Part shown: positions 53,579 through 60,715 of the stretch, piece after piece
Position numbering within the stretch: position 1 is the stretch's first letter
How the letters are laid out: the number at the start of each line of letters is the position of its first letter
From: Planctomycetaceae bacterium
GTDB lineage: Bacteria > Planctomycetota > Planctomycetia > Planctomycetales > Planctomycetaceae
DNA: 64,000 nucleotides
Reading direction: 5' to 3'
Assembly: GCA_002726205.1 (NCBI GenBank)
Contig: PBSL01000036.1
Span: 62,001-126,000 of the forward strand
Position numbers and translations under genes: made by a program
Notes under the pieces: model-generated
What the model was told of the DNA's origin: nothing
Seen by the model: only the letters and a program-made list of their open reading frames with translations
Databases searched by the model: none

Positions 53579-56239
53579 ATGGGGATCGGTTGTCGAACTG
53601 GTGGGTGGTTTCGGGATGGTCGGACGCCAGAAACCGCCTGGAACTGGTTGGGGATGATCGTTGTGATGGCGGTCACGGCGACGTGGCTGTCGGTGGTTTC
53701 GGCGCAGGAGAAGGTCTCGCAGGGGCAGGAGCGGGAGGAACGGCCGGCGGGCCGGTTCGTTGCAAAGGTCTACAAGGACGGTGACGGGACACACAAGTAC
53801 CAGGTGTTCCTGCCGGCCGGCTACGATGCCAACCGTCGCTACCCGGTCATCATGTACCTGCACGGGGCCGACGAGTGCGGTCGCGATGGGATCAAGCCGA
53901 CGCAGATCGGGCTGGGTCCTTACGTGCGGGCCCGGGCCGCGGAGTTTCCCTTTCTGGTGGTCTTTCCGCAGTGCGAGACAACCCGGGGACGACGATTCCT
54001 GGAACGCTGGCAGGCCGGTTCTCCGGATGGCCAGCGGGCGTTGAAGATTCTCGACGAGGTCGAGAAGGACTACAGCGTGGATCGCAGTCGTGAGATCCTG
54101 ACCGGTTGGTCGATGGGAGGATACGGGACGTGGAGCCTGGCGATCGCCCATCCGGAGCGGTGGGCGGCCGTGGTGCCGGTGGCCGGTGGCGGTGATGTCA
54201 CCAAAGTCGCCGCGGTCCGCGAAACGCCCGTCTGGGTGATCCACGGGCCGGGTGACCGAACTGTTTATCCCGAACAGTCGCGGCGGATGGTCGACGCCCT
54301 GAAACGGGCCGGCGGGCTCGTGCGTTACGACGAACCAAGGGACGAGACGCACTCGGTCTGGCAGCGAGCCTATGACAGTGCTGTCCTCGAGAAGTGGTTG
54401 CTGGATCCCCGTCAGCCGTTGCCGGAAAAATCCGTGGCTTTGGTGGCGCGAGGCACCAGGTTGCCGGTTGACCTGTCCCCGTTCGTCCCGGTGGCTCATA
54501 TCGGTGGCGCGGCGTACCTGCGGATCGGGACCGAGGTCCTGGATGCGATTGCCGGCGCGATCCCCTCGGCCATTCCCAAGGACATTATTTCCGGGACGCT
54601 CGAACCACTGGTCTTCAAGGACGTCGAGGGAAAGAAGAAGTACTACGAGGCGACTCTCGACAACATCTCCTACACGGGAGAAATCCAGGAGGTCTCGCTG
54701 GAGACCCAGGCCGATGCAAGCCTGCGTGCACGATTGGCTCTCAGGAACCTGACGGTGAAGTTTGGCCGGACGGTAATCGATCGGGTCAAGCTTGATGACA
54801 GGAAGGTCAACGGACGGCGAGAGTACTTCGAGAAGGATCGGGACAGGAAGTTCAGCACGGGCTTGACCGAGATTCGTGTCGCTCACGAGCGACCGGTCAT
54901 GCTGGAAATCGTGGTGCGGCCGACGATCAAGGACCGACGAGCCCGCCTGTCGCTGGTGAAGTCCTCTTTCTCGATTGACGAGGATCAATTCGTCGTCGTC
55001 GGTCCGAACAAGTCGGCGATCGAGGCGTCGGGGCTGTTCAAGGGACTCAAGCAGAACCGCGTCTACGACGAAATTGTCAACGGCCTGTCGGCGCAGCGGG
55101 GATTGTTTGAGGAGAAGGTTCGGGATGTTGTCCCGATGTTGCTGGAGGAAATGGAAGCGAAGCTGGATTTCGCGGATTCCTCGGACCTGTTTCGCAGTCT
55201 CTGGCCGCTGCCGGTCTTCCAGCCGCGGGTGCGGATTTGGCCCGAAGCGCTGACAGTGGAAAAAAGCGGCATTTCGGTGGCGATCGGGATGACCGTCGCG
55301 GCAGCCGATCCCGAGAAGGCACCCCGGAAACCTCGCGAGTTGACATTGGTCAAGGATCTGATCAACCAGATCCCGCGCACCGGGAACATGCGGATCGGGT
55401 TTGCCCCGGCATTGTTGCAGCCGTTGACGTCGTTGCTGATCGAGTCGGGTGTGGCCCGGGTCGATGTGAGGGACACGCCCGAGGAACTGGTACGAGAGCT
55501 GGGCAGCCGCAGCCGGCTGGTGAAGGTGATCCCGGCGCTGGCCGCGTTGCCGGCGACCACCGACGTGCGGACCGAACTGGTTTTGACGCGATCGATCGCC
55601 GTCATCCCGTCCGACGATTCGCCCTTGGCCTCGCGGGCCCCGATGAAATTTCGATTTTCGGTTCCCGGACTCGAGCTGGCCGTATCGACCCGCGAGAGTC
55701 GTGAGGGGCCGAACTGGCAGCCACTGGCCAGCTTCGCCGTGACTCTCGAACACATGGCCACGATGCAACTGTTGCCGCCCGAGAAGGGCGAACGACGACT
55801 GAAAGTCGGATTTGCTGCACCGCCAAAGATCACCGTCGTTGGCCGCTGGGCAAAGGGAGTCAGTGTCGCTGACCGGTCGTTGCACGACGACGTGTTTCAC
55901 CGGCAGTTCGACCGGGCCTGGCGGGCGTTTGCCGGCAAGGCGCTGGAGGCAACCGTGGCGGTCAGTGATTTTCAGTTCGGTGACGTGTCGCTGCCGCTGT
56001 TTGACATCGGGTGGGCCTCACCGATGATGTACGTTGAGTTTGGCCTGGCGAGTCGGACGAAGGCGGCTTCGCGGAAGGTCGGCCAGGCCGGTTTCGAACG
56101 ACCCGTCCCGAAGGCATCGGATTCGGGCAGGTCGAGACCGGCGGGAAGTGTCGCTCCTGCCGAGTTCTCTCGCCGCCGAGGCCTGCCGGGCACTCGATCC
56201 AGAAAAACGCGGCGTTCGCGGGAAGAACGTCGCCCCTAG
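53579..56239 (+). CDS. Alpha/beta hydrolase fused to a large domain of unknown function
   Basis: This is an 886-residue exported protein. A hydrophobic segment at about residues 23-41 acts as a signal or anchor. Residues about 60-280 form a phospholipase/carboxylesterase-type alpha/beta hydrolase: VIMYLHGADECGRDG (oxyanion loop), GWSMGGYGTW with nucleophile Ser178, VWVIHGPGDRTVYPEQ with the Asp, and DETHSVW with the His near 262. The remaining 600 residues are unlike any family recognised. They contain two or more long beta stretches with alternating hydrophobic residues (YYEATLDNISYTGEIQEVSL, ASLRARLALRNLTVKFG) and amphipathic helices, a pattern seen in tubular lipid-binding (TULIP/BPI) proteins. 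The C-terminal 60 residues are Arg/Ser-rich and disordered. Confidence 0.8.
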   Translation: MGIGCRTGGWFRDGRTPETAWNWLGMIVVMAVTATWLSVVSAQEKVSQGQEREERPAGRFVAKVYKDGDGTHKYQVFLPAGYDANRRYPVIMYLHGADECGRDGIKPTQIGLGPYVRARAAEFPFLVVFPQCETTRGRRFLERWQAGSPDGQRALKILDEVEKDYSVDRSREILTGWSMGGYGTWSLAIAHPERWAAVVPVAGGGDVTKVAAVRETPVWVIHGPGDRTVYPEQSRRMVDALKRAGGLVRYDEPRDETHSVWQRAYDSAVLEKWLLDPRQPLPEKSVALVARGTRLPVDLSPFVPVAHIGGAAYLRIGTEVLDAIAGAIPSAIPKDIISGTLEPLVFKDVEGKKKYYEATLDNISYTGEIQEVSLETQADASLRARLALRNLTVKFGRTVIDRVKLDDRKVNGRREYFEKDRDRKFSTGLTEIRVAHERPVMLEIVVRPTIKDRRARLSLVKSSFSIDEDQFVVVGPNKSAIEASGLFKGLKQNRVYDEIVNGLSAQRGLFEEKVRDVVPMLLEEMEAKLDFADSSDLFRSLWPLPVFQPRVRIWPEALTVEKSGISVAIGMTVAAADPEKAPRKPRELTLVKDLINQIPRTGNMRIGFAPALLQPLTSLLIESGVARVDVRDTPEELVRELGSRSRLVKVIPALAALPATTDVRTELVLTRSIAVIPSDDSPLASRAPMKFRFSVPGLELAVSTRESREGPNWQPLASFAVTLEHMATMQLLPPEKGERRLKVGFAAPPKITVVGRWAKGVSVADRSLHDDVFHRQFDRAWRAFAGKALEATVAVSDFQFGDVSLPLFDIGWASPMMYVEFGLASRTKAASRKVGQAGFERPVPKASDSGRSRPAGSVAPAEFSRRRGLPGTRSRKTRRSREERRP

Positions 56240-56379: not shown

Positions 56380-57966
56380 ATGGCTACGATCACGCTCCAG
56401 GAAGGTCACACGGTCGGTATCGACCTGGGGACCACGTTTTCCTCGATCGCACAACTCGACGACGAGGGAAATCCCCAGGCGATTGTTAACACCGAGGGTG
56501 AGACGATCACCCCGTCGGTCGTGTTGCTCGGCGATGAAGAACGCGTGGTGGTCGGCCCGACGTTCGAGCGGATTGCGCAAGAGGCCCCGGATCGCATCGT
56601 CGAGGCGATCAAGCGGGAGATGGGGAACAAGGATTTTCACGTCATCTACCAGGACCGCAAGCTCACTCCCGAGTTCGTCTCCGCTTTGATCATCAAGAAA
56701 CTCAAGCAGGACGCCGAGAAGGTCATTGGCCCGATCGCCAACGCCGTGCTCACCGTGCCCTATTACTTCAACGACATTCGCCGGAAGGCGACTCAGGATG
56801 CGGGGCGAATCGCGGGGCTGAACGTCATTGACATCATCAACGAACCGACCGCGGCGACGTTGGCCTATGCCTGGGAAATGGGCGAGCTGGGACGGACGGA
56901 TCTCGAACAGGCCGAACGAACGATTCTCGTGTACGACCTTGGCGGCGGAACATTCGACGTGACCGTCGTGCGGTACACGCCGACCAACTTCAAGGTCCTG
57001 GCCACCGACGGAGACGTGATGCTGGGTGGGCTTGACTGGAGCCGCCGGATGGTCGATCACGTGTCCGACGAGTTCCAGAAGAAGTTCGAGATGGATCCGC
57101 GGGAGGATGCCGAGAGCCTGAGGGACCTGACGCAGGACTGCGAAGAGGCAAAGCGGCAACTCTCCGAGAGCGCCCAGGTGCGGATCGACGCCTACTACCA
57201 GGGCAACGAACTGACAGTCTCGATCACCCGTGGGGATTTCGAACGGCTGACCAGTGACCTGCTGCAGCGGACCAAGGACACCACCGAACTGGTGCTCAAG
57301 CAGGCCGACGTGGGTTCCGGTCAACTCGATGAACTGGTCCTCGTGGGGGGCTCGACACACATGCCCGTTGTTGAACAGATGTTGAGAGAGATCTGCGGTC
57401 GCGAGCCATCCCGTGCCGTGCATCCTGAGAAGGCTGTTGGCCACGGGGCGGCGATCCACGCGGCGATTCTCGAAGCCCGCGCCACCGGTGGTGAGTCGCG
57501 GATGGGCAAGGCGATCATCAACCGGCTCCGCGCGGTTTCGACCGCCGATGTCAACTCGCACTCGCTGGGTACCAAGATCACCAATCCCGCCGACCGTACC
57601 AGCAAGATCAACCACATCATGATCCCTCGTAACAACGAGTTGCCCTTCAACGTGACACAGAAATTCGTGACCACGTCGGACAACCAGCAACGGATCCACG
57701 TCTCGGTGCTCGAGGGTGAAGTTGCCGATCCCGATGCCTGTGCGACGATCGGTGATTTCTGGATCACCAACCTGCCACCGAACCTGCCCAAGGGGTCGCC
57801 CCTGGAGGTGACCTACGCCTACGATGCCGCCGGTCGCATCAACTGCTCGGCGAAAGAACTGACCGGTAACGCCGCCGCATCGATCGAGATTGTCCGGGAT
57901 TCGGGACTGGACGCCGATGGCGTCACTTCGTTTGAGAGTCTTGCCGAGAGTTACGTGGTCGAGTGA
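56380..57966 (+). CDS. Hsp70 family protein lacking the lid
   Basis: This 528-residue protein has a complete Hsp70 ATPase domain: HTVGIDLGTTFSSIAQL (phosphate 1), IANAVLTVPYYFNDIRRKAT, NEPTAATLAYAW, VYDLGGGTFDVTVVRY (phosphate 2) and LVLVGGSTHMPVVEQML (adenosine). A substrate-binding beta domain follows from about residue 390 (VNSHSLGTKI, IMIPRNNELPFNV). The helical lid and EEVD-type tail of DnaK (about 638 residues) are absent. AAGGGA precedes the ATG. It is therefore a DnaK paralogue with a specialised role rather than the housekeeping chaperone. The next gene, 78 bp away, encodes a J-like membrane protein that may be its partner. Confidence 0.93.
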   Translation: MATITLQEGHTVGIDLGTTFSSIAQLDDEGNPQAIVNTEGETITPSVVLLGDEERVVVGPTFERIAQEAPDRIVEAIKREMGNKDFHVIYQDRKLTPEFVSALIIKKLKQDAEKVIGPIANAVLTVPYYFNDIRRKATQDAGRIAGLNVIDIINEPTAATLAYAWEMGELGRTDLEQAERTILVYDLGGGTFDVTVVRYTPTNFKVLATDGDVMLGGLDWSRRMVDHVSDEFQKKFEMDPREDAESLRDLTQDCEEAKRQLSESAQVRIDAYYQGNELTVSITRGDFERLTSDLLQRTKDTTELVLKQADVGSGQLDELVLVGGSTHMPVVEQMLREICGREPSRAVHPEKAVGHGAAIHAAILEARATGGESRMGKAIINRLRAVSTADVNSHSLGTKITNPADRTSKINHIMIPRNNELPFNVTQKFVTTSDNQQRIHVSVLEGEVADPDACATIGDFWITNLPPNLPKGSPLEVTYAYDAAGRINCSAKELTGNAAASIEIVRDSGLDADGVTSFESLAESYVVE

Positions 57967-58044
57967 TCACGCCGTGTGTTTGATGGGTCGGGGTTCATCG
58001 GCTGCTGAACCCGCTGTTTCCTGTTCTGACAATTGAGACACCGC

Positions 58045-59055
58045 GTGGCCTTGGACGTCTACAAGGACTGGCTGGGAATTTCCGAGGAGATCCCTCGACC
58101 GCCGGATCTCTATTCCCTGTTGCGGTTGTCCCGCTTCGAGGACGAAGCCGACAAGATCCGTGCACACTACAAGAAACTCAATGCCCACGTCCGCAAGTAC
58201 GCCACGGGAACCTACCAGCTGGAGTCCCAGGAACTGCTCAACGAGCTTGCCAAGGGCATGCTCTGCCTGACCGATCCCGAGCGAAAACGCGAGTACGACG
58301 AAGGGCTCGGCCGGACATTCGAGGACGAGGACGATGTCCGACCGACGATCTCCCAGACCCTGGTGCGGCGGGGGATCGCGACGCGGGAACAGATGACCGA
58401 GGCGAAGGACTTTGCCGAGAAGCGAGGACTCTCGATTCGTGATGCTGTGGTGCAGATGAAGTTGACCGATGCCGAGACGGCGACCGAGGCGCTGGCCGGC
58501 GAACTCGGACTCCCCTACGTCGATCTCGAACAGCTCATTCCCGACGATTCGATTCTGGCAAAAGTCCCCCGCAACGTCGCCCGCCGAAATTCGGTGCTGC
58601 CGCTGTTTGTTGACGACGACATGCTGCTGGTCGCCTGCGTCGACGAACCGACGCATGAAATCGAGGACGAACTGAGACTGCGGGTCGGGGTGTCGATGCG
58701 GCGGGTGATCGCCAGTCCATTGGCGATCAACCAGGCGATCGCCAAGTACTACGCGGGTCTGGAGGCCGGCGCATCGGACAAGGCGGAACCGGAAGCGAAA
58801 AAGACCAAAGAGCCGAGGAAAAAAACGCCGCGGGCGGGCGAGGCTGGTGAGGACTTTGCCGAGACGCACCAGAGGAAACAGCTGGGGATCATCCTGATGT
58901 GCTGGAGCATCGCGTTGCCGGTGGTGCTGGATATCTGGGTTGTTCCCGGCACGGTCACGCGAATCATGCCCGCCTGGTTTCCCTACGTGGTCTCGCCACT
59001 GGTGTCGCCGGTCGCGTTGTTCCTGGTCTGGTCGCGGTTTTTCCGGAAGCGGTAG
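58045..59055 (+). CDS. J-like/MshEN membrane protein paired with Hsp70
   Basis: A GTG at 58045 gives MALDVYKDWLGI, the expected opening; a TTG at 58033 is also possible. The 336-residue protein starts with a J-domain-like helical hairpin at about residues 20-92 (DLYSLLRLSRF, IRAHYKKLNAHVRKY, LTDPERKREYDEGLG), but the HPD tripeptide needed to stimulate Hsp70 is missing. Residues about 100-245 are a MshEN/GspE N-terminal-like domain (ALAGELGLPYVDLEQL, VARRNSVLPLFVDDDMLLVA). A basic linker follows, then two C-terminal transmembrane helices. The tandem with Hsp70 suggests a membrane-tethered, perhaps nucleotide-signal-responsive, chaperone module. Confidence 0.85.
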   Translation: MALDVYKDWLGISEEIPRPPDLYSLLRLSRFEDEADKIRAHYKKLNAHVRKYATGTYQLESQELLNELAKGMLCLTDPERKREYDEGLGRTFEDEDDVRPTISQTLVRRGIATREQMTEAKDFAEKRGLSIRDAVVQMKLTDAETATEALAGELGLPYVDLEQLIPDDSILAKVPRNVARRNSVLPLFVDDDMLLVACVDEPTHEIEDELRLRVGVSMRRVIASPLAINQAIAKYYAGLEAGASDKAEPEAKKTKEPRKKTPRAGEAGEDFAETHQRKQLGIILMCWSIALPVVLDIWVVPGTVTRIMPAWFPYVVSPLVSPVALFLVWSRFFRKR

Positions 59056-59061
59056 CCCCGG

Positions 59062-59670
59062 TCACCAACCACTTCCTGTGGCATTGGTCCAGATCGCCCA
59101 GTAGACCGTCTTGTCGTCGATCTTGTGGTAGCGGTCGACGATTGCCCCGATGTAGTGCTCGTCCAACGGCAGCGTCAACGCCATTCTCTGGGCGTCGCCG
59201 GCACGAAACCTGGTCACGGTTCCGCCCAGGTCGGCGTAGAATTCGTCGGCGACCTTCCCGCGGGGTTTGCGGGGGTTGTAGTGGGCGACGTAGATCGTGT
59301 CGCCGGTCGTTTCGCCTCGGTGCACCAGGTCAACCTTGTATTTCAGGACGAACGCGTAGTTGTACAGCCCGTCGTTGGGCAGGAACTCGCCGGGCAATTC
59401 CACCAGCGTGGCGGTCACCTCGACGCTGCCGGCCGTCGTGACCTGTCCGCCGTCGCCGTAGCGTCCCGCCGGCGTGAATTTCATCTGGATCGCCAACCCC
59501 ACGCCGGCGGTTGCCAGGATCACCAGCCCCAGCAGGGTCCAGCGGACCATGGTGTTTTCGCTGCCGGACGCCCGGGTCCCGCTCGACTTCTCCGGGATCG
59601 AGGCCGAGGACTCCGCTGCCATGGGGTTGGAAGCTGCTGGGTCGGGTCGTGGATCGAGCTTGTCGGACAT
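59062..59670 (-). CDS. Membrane-anchored protein of unknown function
   Basis: The ATG at 59670 gives 202 residues; an ATG at 59706 would overlap the preceding gene by 20 bp. After a 40-residue disordered Ser/Pro/Asp-rich head comes one transmembrane helix (LLGLVILATAGVGLAIQM region). The outside part has beta strands (VEVTATLVELPGEFLP, NYAFVLKYKVDLVHRG, GDTIYVAHYNPRKPRGK) that could form a small barrel or immunoglobulin-like domain. The planctomycete habit of cytoplasmic disordered heads with one TM is seen elsewhere in this window. It follows the PD40 protein gene closely on the minus strand and ends 6 bp from the J-like gene stop. Confidence 0.65.
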   Translation of the reverse strand: MSDKLDPRPDPAASNPMAAESSASIPEKSSGTRASGSENTMVRWTLLGLVILATAGVGLAIQMKFTPAGRYGDGGQVTTAGSVEVTATLVELPGEFLPNDGLYNYAFVLKYKVDLVHRGETTGDTIYVAHYNPRKPRGKVADEFYADLGGTVTRFRAGDAQRMALTLPLDEHYIGAIVDRYHKIDDKTVYWAIWTNATGSGW

Positions 59671-59686
59671 GATCTCGGAGTCGATT

Positions 59687-60715
59687 TCAGCGGGAGGCCG
59701 TGACATCGACAAAGGTCCAGTGAGGCTCCCAGCAGTCGAGTAATGGCAGGACGGGTCCGTCGTGGGCATCGGGATGCTGCTTGCGGAGCGCCGGGCTCTT
59801 GCCGCCGATGATCGGAGCGTCGGCCAGTCTCATCAATCCGCCGGGTGCTCCGTCACGTTCCGAGCCTCCCCCGTCCTTCGGGCAGCGGGTAAACAGCACA
59901 TAGCGGCCGTCCGGCGACAACGCGCCCCCGTAAATGTGGCGACCATCTTCCCCGTAGATCATCCGGCGGCTGGAACCGTCTCCCGGTGCCATCCACAACT
60001 GTGTCCAACCGTACTTGGCCTGGTTGGCCGGCCGGTTGCTGAAGATCACGTGCTTGGAATCGGGGAACCAGTCGGGTGTGCAATTTCGAAAACGACTGAC
60101 CACACTCCAACGACCGCTGGTGACATCCATGCGGACGATGGTCCAGAGTTCCCCGCCGACGTTGGCGGTGCCACAAAACCACTTGCCGTCGGGCGACCAG
60201 AACAACTGTTGAAAGTAACCGGCCCGTTTCATCCGGCGGCGGATCGTTCCGGTGGCCACGTCGATGATCTCGATCCCCTTCAACGACAGGCAGGAGATCT
60301 GCTTTCCATCGGGACTCCAGCATCCCCAGGGGCGGGCGCCCAGGACTCGCGGATTGCGTCCCAGGGCATCGGCCAGGACCAGTTCGCCCTGGAATCCCCA
60401 GCGATCATGGCTGATGACCGTGCCGGTCTTGATGCGCCGGTAGAGCAACCGGCGGCTGTCCGGCGACCACCGCGGCGCCGCCTCGCTCCATTTCGGCGTG
60501 TCGGTCAATTTCCGACGCTGCGACCCGTCGGGCCGCATCAGCACCAGGTCCCAGTCGCCTCGCGGCTGCTTCACGCTGGTGACGACAAATCCTCTGCCGG
60601 CCACTTCTTTCCGCAACACGGTGACCGCGTCGGCCTTGTCGGCGGTGAGGGCCTGTGGAGCGAGTCCAAGCAGCACCAGGGAAAACGGAAGGATGGTCCG
60701 GATCACGGCTGGCAT
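59687..60715 (-). CDS. PD40/TolB-like propeller exported protein
   Basis: This 342-residue protein has a signal peptide (ILPFSLVLLGLAPQALTA) and a propeller with PD40 motifs (PRWSPDSRRLLYRR, GCWSPDGKQISCL, LFWSPDGKWFCGT, PDWFPDSKHVIFSN, ALSPDGRYVLFTR). Cys residues occur in blades. It differs from the PD40 protein at 13674 by lacking the KKAAE linker. TolB-like propellers usually bind peptides or sugars; no function can be given. It is 96 bp downstream of der and followed by a membrane-anchored protein of unknown function. Confidence 0.82.
   Translation of the reverse strand: MPAVIRTILPFSLVLLGLAPQALTADKADAVTVLRKEVAGRGFVVTSVKQPRGDWDLVLMRPDGSQRRKLTDTPKWSEAAPRWSPDSRRLLYRRIKTGTVISHDRWGFQGELVLADALGRNPRVLGARPWGCWSPDGKQISCLSLKGIEIIDVATGTIRRRMKRAGYFQQLFWSPDGKWFCGTANVGGELWTIVRMDVTSGRWSVVSRFRNCTPDWFPDSKHVIFSNRPANQAKYGWTQLWMAPGDGSSRRMIYGEDGRHIYGGALSPDGRYVLFTRCPKDGGGSERDGAPGGLMRLADAPIIGGKSPALRKQHPDAHDGPVLPLLDCWEPHWTFVDVTASR

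Follow-up and report, generated by a model that had tools for sequence, protein, structure and literature searches.

By analogy, the closest working counterpart of the locus described here would be the yeast and human ribosome-associated complex (RAC), in which the lidless Hsp70 Ssz1 is held by the J protein Zuo1 (PMC7083937). Like the Hsp70 that we report, Ssz1 joins an SBD-beta to an aberrant linker, lacks a lid, and is dedicated to a J-type protein that localises it, a dedication that at our locus takes the form of genetic pairing alone. Unlike our protein, which has no HPD and is equipped with a membrane anchor, Zuo1 activates Ssb through a functional J domain and binds to ribosomes. Ssz1 is moreover reported to be unable to hydrolyse ATP, whereas the catalytic residues of our Hsp70 are intact. 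Dedicated pairs of an Hsp70 and a J protein are also known from DnaK-DnaJ, HscA-HscB, and HscC-DjlB/C, and HscC works with membrane-linked J proteins as well (PMC8215388). The J proteins of these systems, however, depend on HPD, and the lidded Hsp70s that we sampled keep Arg167. In DnaK-DnaJ the HPD aspartate bonds with Arg167 and Gln378 and the histidine bonds with the backbone of Leu391, and ATPase stimulation is reported to be lost, in all systems tested, when either the His or the Asp is replaced (PMC8215388). In Hsp70-J pairs generally, HPD and its Arg167 contact are taken for an indispensable lock and key.

Three further systems each resemble a part of the locus. CJD1/ARC6 and Tim16 carry a membrane-associated J-like domain without HPD, but they have neither a gene pairing with a dedicated lidless Hsp70 nor an MshEN domain; CJD1 neither bound chloroplast Hsp70s nor replaced DnaJ (PMC3196505). 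The MshEN receptor of MshE and PilB (PMC5013675) shares the fold of our membrane protein and a significant Pfam match, although our protein has no secretion ATPase domain and its c-di-GMP motif is destroyed. Myxococcus StkA, an Hsp70-like exopolysaccharide regulator whose authors compare it to Ssz1 (PMC4319316), is likewise a divergent Hsp70 with a regulatory role, a likeness that we draw by description; the downstream neighbours of StkA, however, are sterol-carrier-like and PhaE-like proteins, with no J protein. Within the literature that we searched, of which coverage was partial, we found no earlier description of a lidless Hsp70 paired with an HPD-less membrane J-like protein.

The window, by which we mean the whole stretch of 64,000 nucleotides from a Planctomycetaceae bacterium that we analysed, carries such a pair. 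Its features are as follows.

56380 to 57966, plus strand: lidless Hsp70 of 528 aa, ATG start at 56380 and stop at 57966; the domain order is nucleotide-binding domain, altered linker, and SBD-beta, with the SBD-alpha lid absent
56830 to 56832, plus strand: Asp151 of the Hsp70, at the position of DnaK Arg167 (the contact of the HPD aspartate), D in 67 of 67 orthologues
57535 to 57570, plus strand: interdomain linker of the Hsp70, residues 386-397, where VSTADVNSHSLG replaces VLLLDVTPLSLG
57967 to 58044, plus strand: intergenic gap of 78 bp, with a weak terminator-like hairpin at 57991-58012
58045 to 59055, plus strand: J-like/MshEN protein of 336 aa with two transmembrane (TM) helices, GTG start at 58045
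58054 to 58311, plus strand: J-like domain, residues 4-89, with an N-terminal WLGIP..PP extension
58192 to 58200, plus strand: HPD position, occupied by Arg50-Lys51-Tyr52, which are kept in 79/80, 78/80, and 77/80 orthologues, respectively (the best 80 of 215 relatives)
58336 to 58773, plus strand: MshEN domain, residues 98-243, with a degenerate c-di-GMP motif
58888 to 58944, plus strand: TM helix 1, residues 282-300 (hydropathy 2.35; model helix 267-303)
58972 to 59028, plus strand: TM helix 2, residues 310-328 (hydropathy 1.74; model helix 316-332)

We scanned one genome per species with a profile, obtained 215 relatives of the J-like/MshEN protein, and analysed the best 80, which come mainly from the Planctomycetaceae (Gimesia, Schlesneria, Planctomicrobium, Thalassoglobus, Fuerstiella, and others). 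Of these 80 loci, 69 have the Hsp70 immediately upstream in the same orientation; in 9 of the 11 unlinked genomes an Hsp70 orthologue of 64-69% identity is encoded elsewhere, so that the two proteins are present together in 78 of 80. No Hsp70 orthologue was found in the remaining 2 of the 80, both of which are metagenome assemblies. Complete pairs were located in 67 cases, of which 31 are in frame. The sequence-only reading of this DNA had proposed co-occurrence across the Planctomycetota as its check, and the pairing is indeed conserved. The full-length J-MshEN protein was encountered, among 294 sampled genomes of the phylum, only in the window's family and in one genome of another family, and Hsp70s at least 55% identical to the window's have the same range in 199 sampled genomes. 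No other neighbour of the pair is conserved in more than 11 of the 80 loci, and we rejected a wider operon around it on this count. That the two genes are chance neighbours with no functional link is, in our judgment, exceedingly improbable: 11 of the 80 loci are unlinked and a terminator-like hairpin separates the two genes, but no other gene approaches an adjacency of 69/80, the phyletic ranges coincide in the samples searched, and lidless Hsp70s pair again with other J-like proteins in the phylum. A scan for promoters of the pair found none, and terminator-like sites numbered 7 observed against 2.3 expected.

The Hsp70 matches the Pfam HSP70 profile (PF00012) at 395 bits, with the match stopping at profile position 517 of 599. 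A search for an SBD-alpha lid of the canonical DnaK type found none in the window protein, which ends at residue 528, and because all 67 complete orthologues measure 523-528 aa, the absence of the lid is ancestral and not a truncation. The equivalents of all five DnaK ATP-site residues aligned (D8, T11, K70, E171, and T199) are kept, and the Hsp70 therefore likely uses ATP. Its SBD-beta aligns to residue 525; the predicted model superposes on DnaK through residue 528 and fits ATP-state DnaK (4b9q) at 2.3 A over 477 residues. The allosteric linker of canonical DnaK, VLLLD, has become VSTAD in the window Hsp70, and the N-S-H-x-L-G form of the linker is seen again in much of the lidless class. 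The ATPase motifs and missing lid that had been read from the sequence are thus sustained by profile, alignment, and orthologue lengths.

The residues that would receive HPD are lost from this Hsp70 and its kin. Arg167 and Gln378 are invariant in E. coli DnaK (numbering checked against published residues) and in 13 planctomycete DnaKs, and Arg167 is kept in those other lidded Hsp70s that we examined. In every lidless Hsp70 aligned, Arg167 is replaced by Asp, Glu, Ser, or Gly and Gln378 by His, Tyr, or Trp (His in the window Hsp70), and the leucine linker is gone. The acidic J-binding patch of DnaK is also altered, with E206 changed to R and E217 to R or K, while helix II of the J-like domain stays basic. 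Our tree of a Planctomycetota sample places the lidless Hsp70s in one clade with support of 100/100 and the sampled DnaKs outside it, and members paired with J-like genes are scattered over this clade, including a long, uncertain basal branch (L210). Given a single clade over which the paired members are spread, the HPD-contact site was probably lost once, in an ancestor, and not many times independently.

The second gene of the pair was listed as an open reading frame from TTG 58033; the orthologue alignment favours GTG 58045, which is the most likely start because the orthologues begin there. A single-sequence scan with Pfam DnaJ gave 15.5 bits, below the threshold of 27.8. A 13-sequence family profile of the J-like domain, searched against the PDB, recovered 39 matches at E <0.01, of which 39 were J proteins (best 1.8e-6), and hhalign against the DnaJ and CbpA J domains of the same genome returned 95%. 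In the AlphaFold model of the protein (mean pLDDT 82.7), residues 18-94 match the J domains of HscB, dnj-12, Tid1, and DnaJ at Z 5.6 to 7.7, and J-domain entries make up the majority of fold matches over this span; since such Z scores are modest for a helical domain, it is the sequence evidence that carries the claim of J ancestry. Judged by profile, hhalign, and fold model together, the J-like part is a true relative of the J domain, and not the unrelated fold that would have undone the sequence-only reading of a J-like hairpin without HPD. HPD itself occurs in the J region of 0/80 orthologues (the best 80 of 215 relatives). Across the same 80, mean column entropy is 0.67 bits in the J-like domain vs 1.3-2.4 elsewhere, and conservation of the protein peaks in this domain. 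By analogy with RAC, the conserved WLGIP..PP extension is a candidate N-terminal pseudo-substrate for SBD-beta. The two hydrophobic segments (282-300 and 310-328) support the membrane attachment that had been proposed. Because there is no N-terminal signal sequence, the linker is basic in most orthologues, and the C-terminal tail is basic, both soluble domains (J-like and MshEN) most likely lie in the cytoplasm.

The main rival to the docking model that we set out below holds that the J-like domain still activates its own Hsp70 with a new key, the change of HPD to Arg-Lys-Tyr being matched by that of Arg167 to Asp, and the couple being insulated from DnaK/DnaJ. The near-invariant R50, K51, and Y52 would then face an invariant D151, on an Hsp70 whose ATPase residues are intact and through the most conserved part of the partner. 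The classical docking geometry looks unfavourable, however, with E206 and E217 turned basic opposite a basic helix II, and the 167 position is occupied by S or G in other lidless members, which argues against any general charge swap and weakens a simple exchange of Arg167 to Asp for HPD to Arg-Lys. We regard an activator of this kind as possible but unlikely.

The MshEN domain is secure as a fold: Pfam MshEN scores 68.6 bits, well over threshold, and model residues 97-236 superpose on c-di-GMP-bound MshE (5htl) at Z 16.1 and an rmsd of 2.7 over 137 residues, as the sequence-only reading had recognised along with the TM helices. That reading had further suggested that the domain may sense a nucleotide signal and had proposed aligning the c-di-GMP residues, and here it fails. 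Taking the binding residues and motif from PMC5013675, we find Arg9 kept in 1/80, Gln61 in 4/80, and Gln32, Arg38, Gly40, Gly47, and Leu54 each in 0/80 of the best 80 of 215 relatives, and the two RLGxx...LxxxLxxQ motifs of MshEN receptors are absent from the window protein and its orthologues. XpsE, in which several key MshEN residues are changed, is reported to have lost c-di-GMP binding (PMC5013675). A switch in which MshEN senses c-di-GMP and gates the chaperone would have the fold and the Pfam match on its side, but with the key residues gone in essentially all orthologues we consider it very improbable and reject c-di-GMP sensing. The Gly40 position is held instead by an almost invariant Arg132, which argues that this surface is constrained for something other than c-di-GMP.

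Pairing of lidless Hsp70s with J-like genes extends beyond the window's gene pair. The genome itself holds exactly two J-like domains of this class, both beside a lidless Hsp70; the two canonical J proteins that it also has are encoded on other contigs. The second pair (L016; contig C37, 34-36 kb, ~26 kb upstream of the window start) consists of an HPD-less J-like gene, a 254-aa open reading frame with one TM segment and a PEGA-like tail, directly upstream of a lidless Hsp70 of 565 aa; a relative of this pair, an Hsp70 paralogue beside a J-like gene, occurs in another Planctomycetaceae-type genome (L212). Beyond the family, at L210, L213, and L214-L217, lidless Hsp70s with 41-47% identity to the window's adjoin same-strand J-like genes, in the order Hsp70-J-Hsp70 at L210 and J-Hsp70-J at L213. 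The C-termini of these partners vary: some are PEGA-like, some combine a zinc ribbon with propeller-like repeats, and others carry a sulfatase-modifying-factor domain or a coiled coil together with TM helices (we assigned the labels PEGA-like and coiled coil by reading the sequence). Most partners of the distant lidless Hsp70s carry TM segments. As the C-termini differ, it is the J-like part that these partners have in common.

That every lidless Hsp70 has an adjacent J-like gene must be rejected: none was found, with a broader profile included, in the examined flanks of 10 lidless loci (L203-L209, L211, L017, and L018). Nor is it strictly true that no J-like protein keeps HPD, since both J-like proteins of L213 hold the tripeptide displaced by ~four residues, possibly as a relic or an intermediate. 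Two Hsp70 paralogues without a J-like neighbour, L017 (contig C21 of the same genome) and L150, are 51-54% identical to the window's and could share its J-like partner in trans. At L210 the first Hsp70 forms the last part of an open frame of 840 aa, in which ~335 residues precede it.

PilM, protease, WD40, and LRR proteins carry J-like domains of this class too, and so do genomes in which the sole Hsp70 found was DnaK; these domains are therefore not solely docks for Hsp70. They could be a general planctomycete protein-binding module with some other partner, while MshEN, or nothing, holds an Hsp70 that is merely co-regulated. Tim16 binds Tim14, and such a partner might be another J-like protein; GspE-type N domains bind the actin-like GspL, and the fold matches of the MshEN protein include 2bh1 and 4pht. 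The fusions to unrelated domains and the DnaK-only genomes fit this reading, which we nevertheless judge improbable, given that the C-terminal modules differ among the partners of lidless Hsp70s and the J-like domain is what they have in common.

We favour, at what we would call an even chance, a dedicated membrane chaperone unit resembling RAC. Its Hsp70 would retain the ATP site and the client-binding beta-sandwich and have dispensed with the lid, the leucine-rich allosteric linker, and the HPD-binding site; its partner would be anchored by two TM helices, and its two soluble domains would most likely face the cytoplasm. By means of a remodelled surface, the J-like domain would dock the Hsp70 of its own pair at the membrane and would not set off ATP hydrolysis through HPD and Arg167; it is the likeliest Hsp70 contact because it is both the most conserved segment and the part shared by different partners. 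MshEN may serve as a protein-protein adaptor that chooses the membrane site or the client, and client exchange should be fast and only loosely coupled to ATP, given that lid and allosteric linker are missing (data on lidless DnaK are cited in PMC7083937). The earlier suggestion that the J-like part anchors rather than activates Hsp70 gains from the remodelled HPD-binding site, which fits docking without classical activation. The intact ATPase residues mean that an activator could still exist, and CJD1, an HPD-less J-like protein tested by experiment, bound no Hsp70 (PMC3196505). We also folded both proteins as one linked chain, which a code-4 reading allows because the three in-frame stops between the genes are all TGA. 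This pseudo-cofold had a pTM of 0.57 and a J-region pLDDT of ~65 vs ~82 alone, with the Hsp70 in an ATP-like open state (matching 4b9q and 5nro).

To judge from the sequences, what is new here is that the lidless Hsp70s form one clade, that the loss of Arg167 and Gln378 is clade-wide, and that distant members stand beside J-like genes with other C-termini. Although HPD and its Hsp70 contacts have been lost on both sides, conservation of the pairing and of the J-like surface is strong, and this suggests a chaperone system private to the pair, with contacts other than those of the textbook Hsp70-J couple. The locus offers a natural system in which to ask how a J-type domain serves an Hsp70 other than by HPD-driven ATP hydrolysis, and whether bacteria have built RAC-like complexes. 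More broadly, the Planctomycetota may carry a further type of bacterial Hsp70, a lidless clade in which the HPD-binding site has been rebuilt and whose docking partners are J-like proteins without HPD, with location or client determined by the C-terminal modules of these partners, in a network parallel to and insulated from DnaK/DnaJ; on this generalisation our opinion is evenly divided.

Several minor observations accompany these results. In two genomes of another family, a J-like domain with a double zinc ribbon is fused to a PilM-type actin-like ATPase (L146, 644-3253, minus strand; L148, 1430-4084, plus strand), which recalls the association of J-like domains with actin-fold ATPases. At L136-L147 the same N-terminal module (WLGIP..PP..Y.LLG) is followed by trypsin-like, WD40, LRR, or other C-terminal regions, usually with a TM segment between, and no Pfam model exceeded threshold over it. 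Within the window, an 886-aa protein (53579-56239, plus strand) joins an esterase/alpha-beta hydrolase domain at its N-terminus to a long C-terminal region with no Pfam match, and a relative lies upstream of the pair in 11 of the best 80 of 215 loci. Convergent with the pair is a 235-aa protein (59062-59769, minus strand) that matches no Pfam model, has a single apparent TM segment, and recurs in 3 of the same 80 loci, those of the closest relatives.
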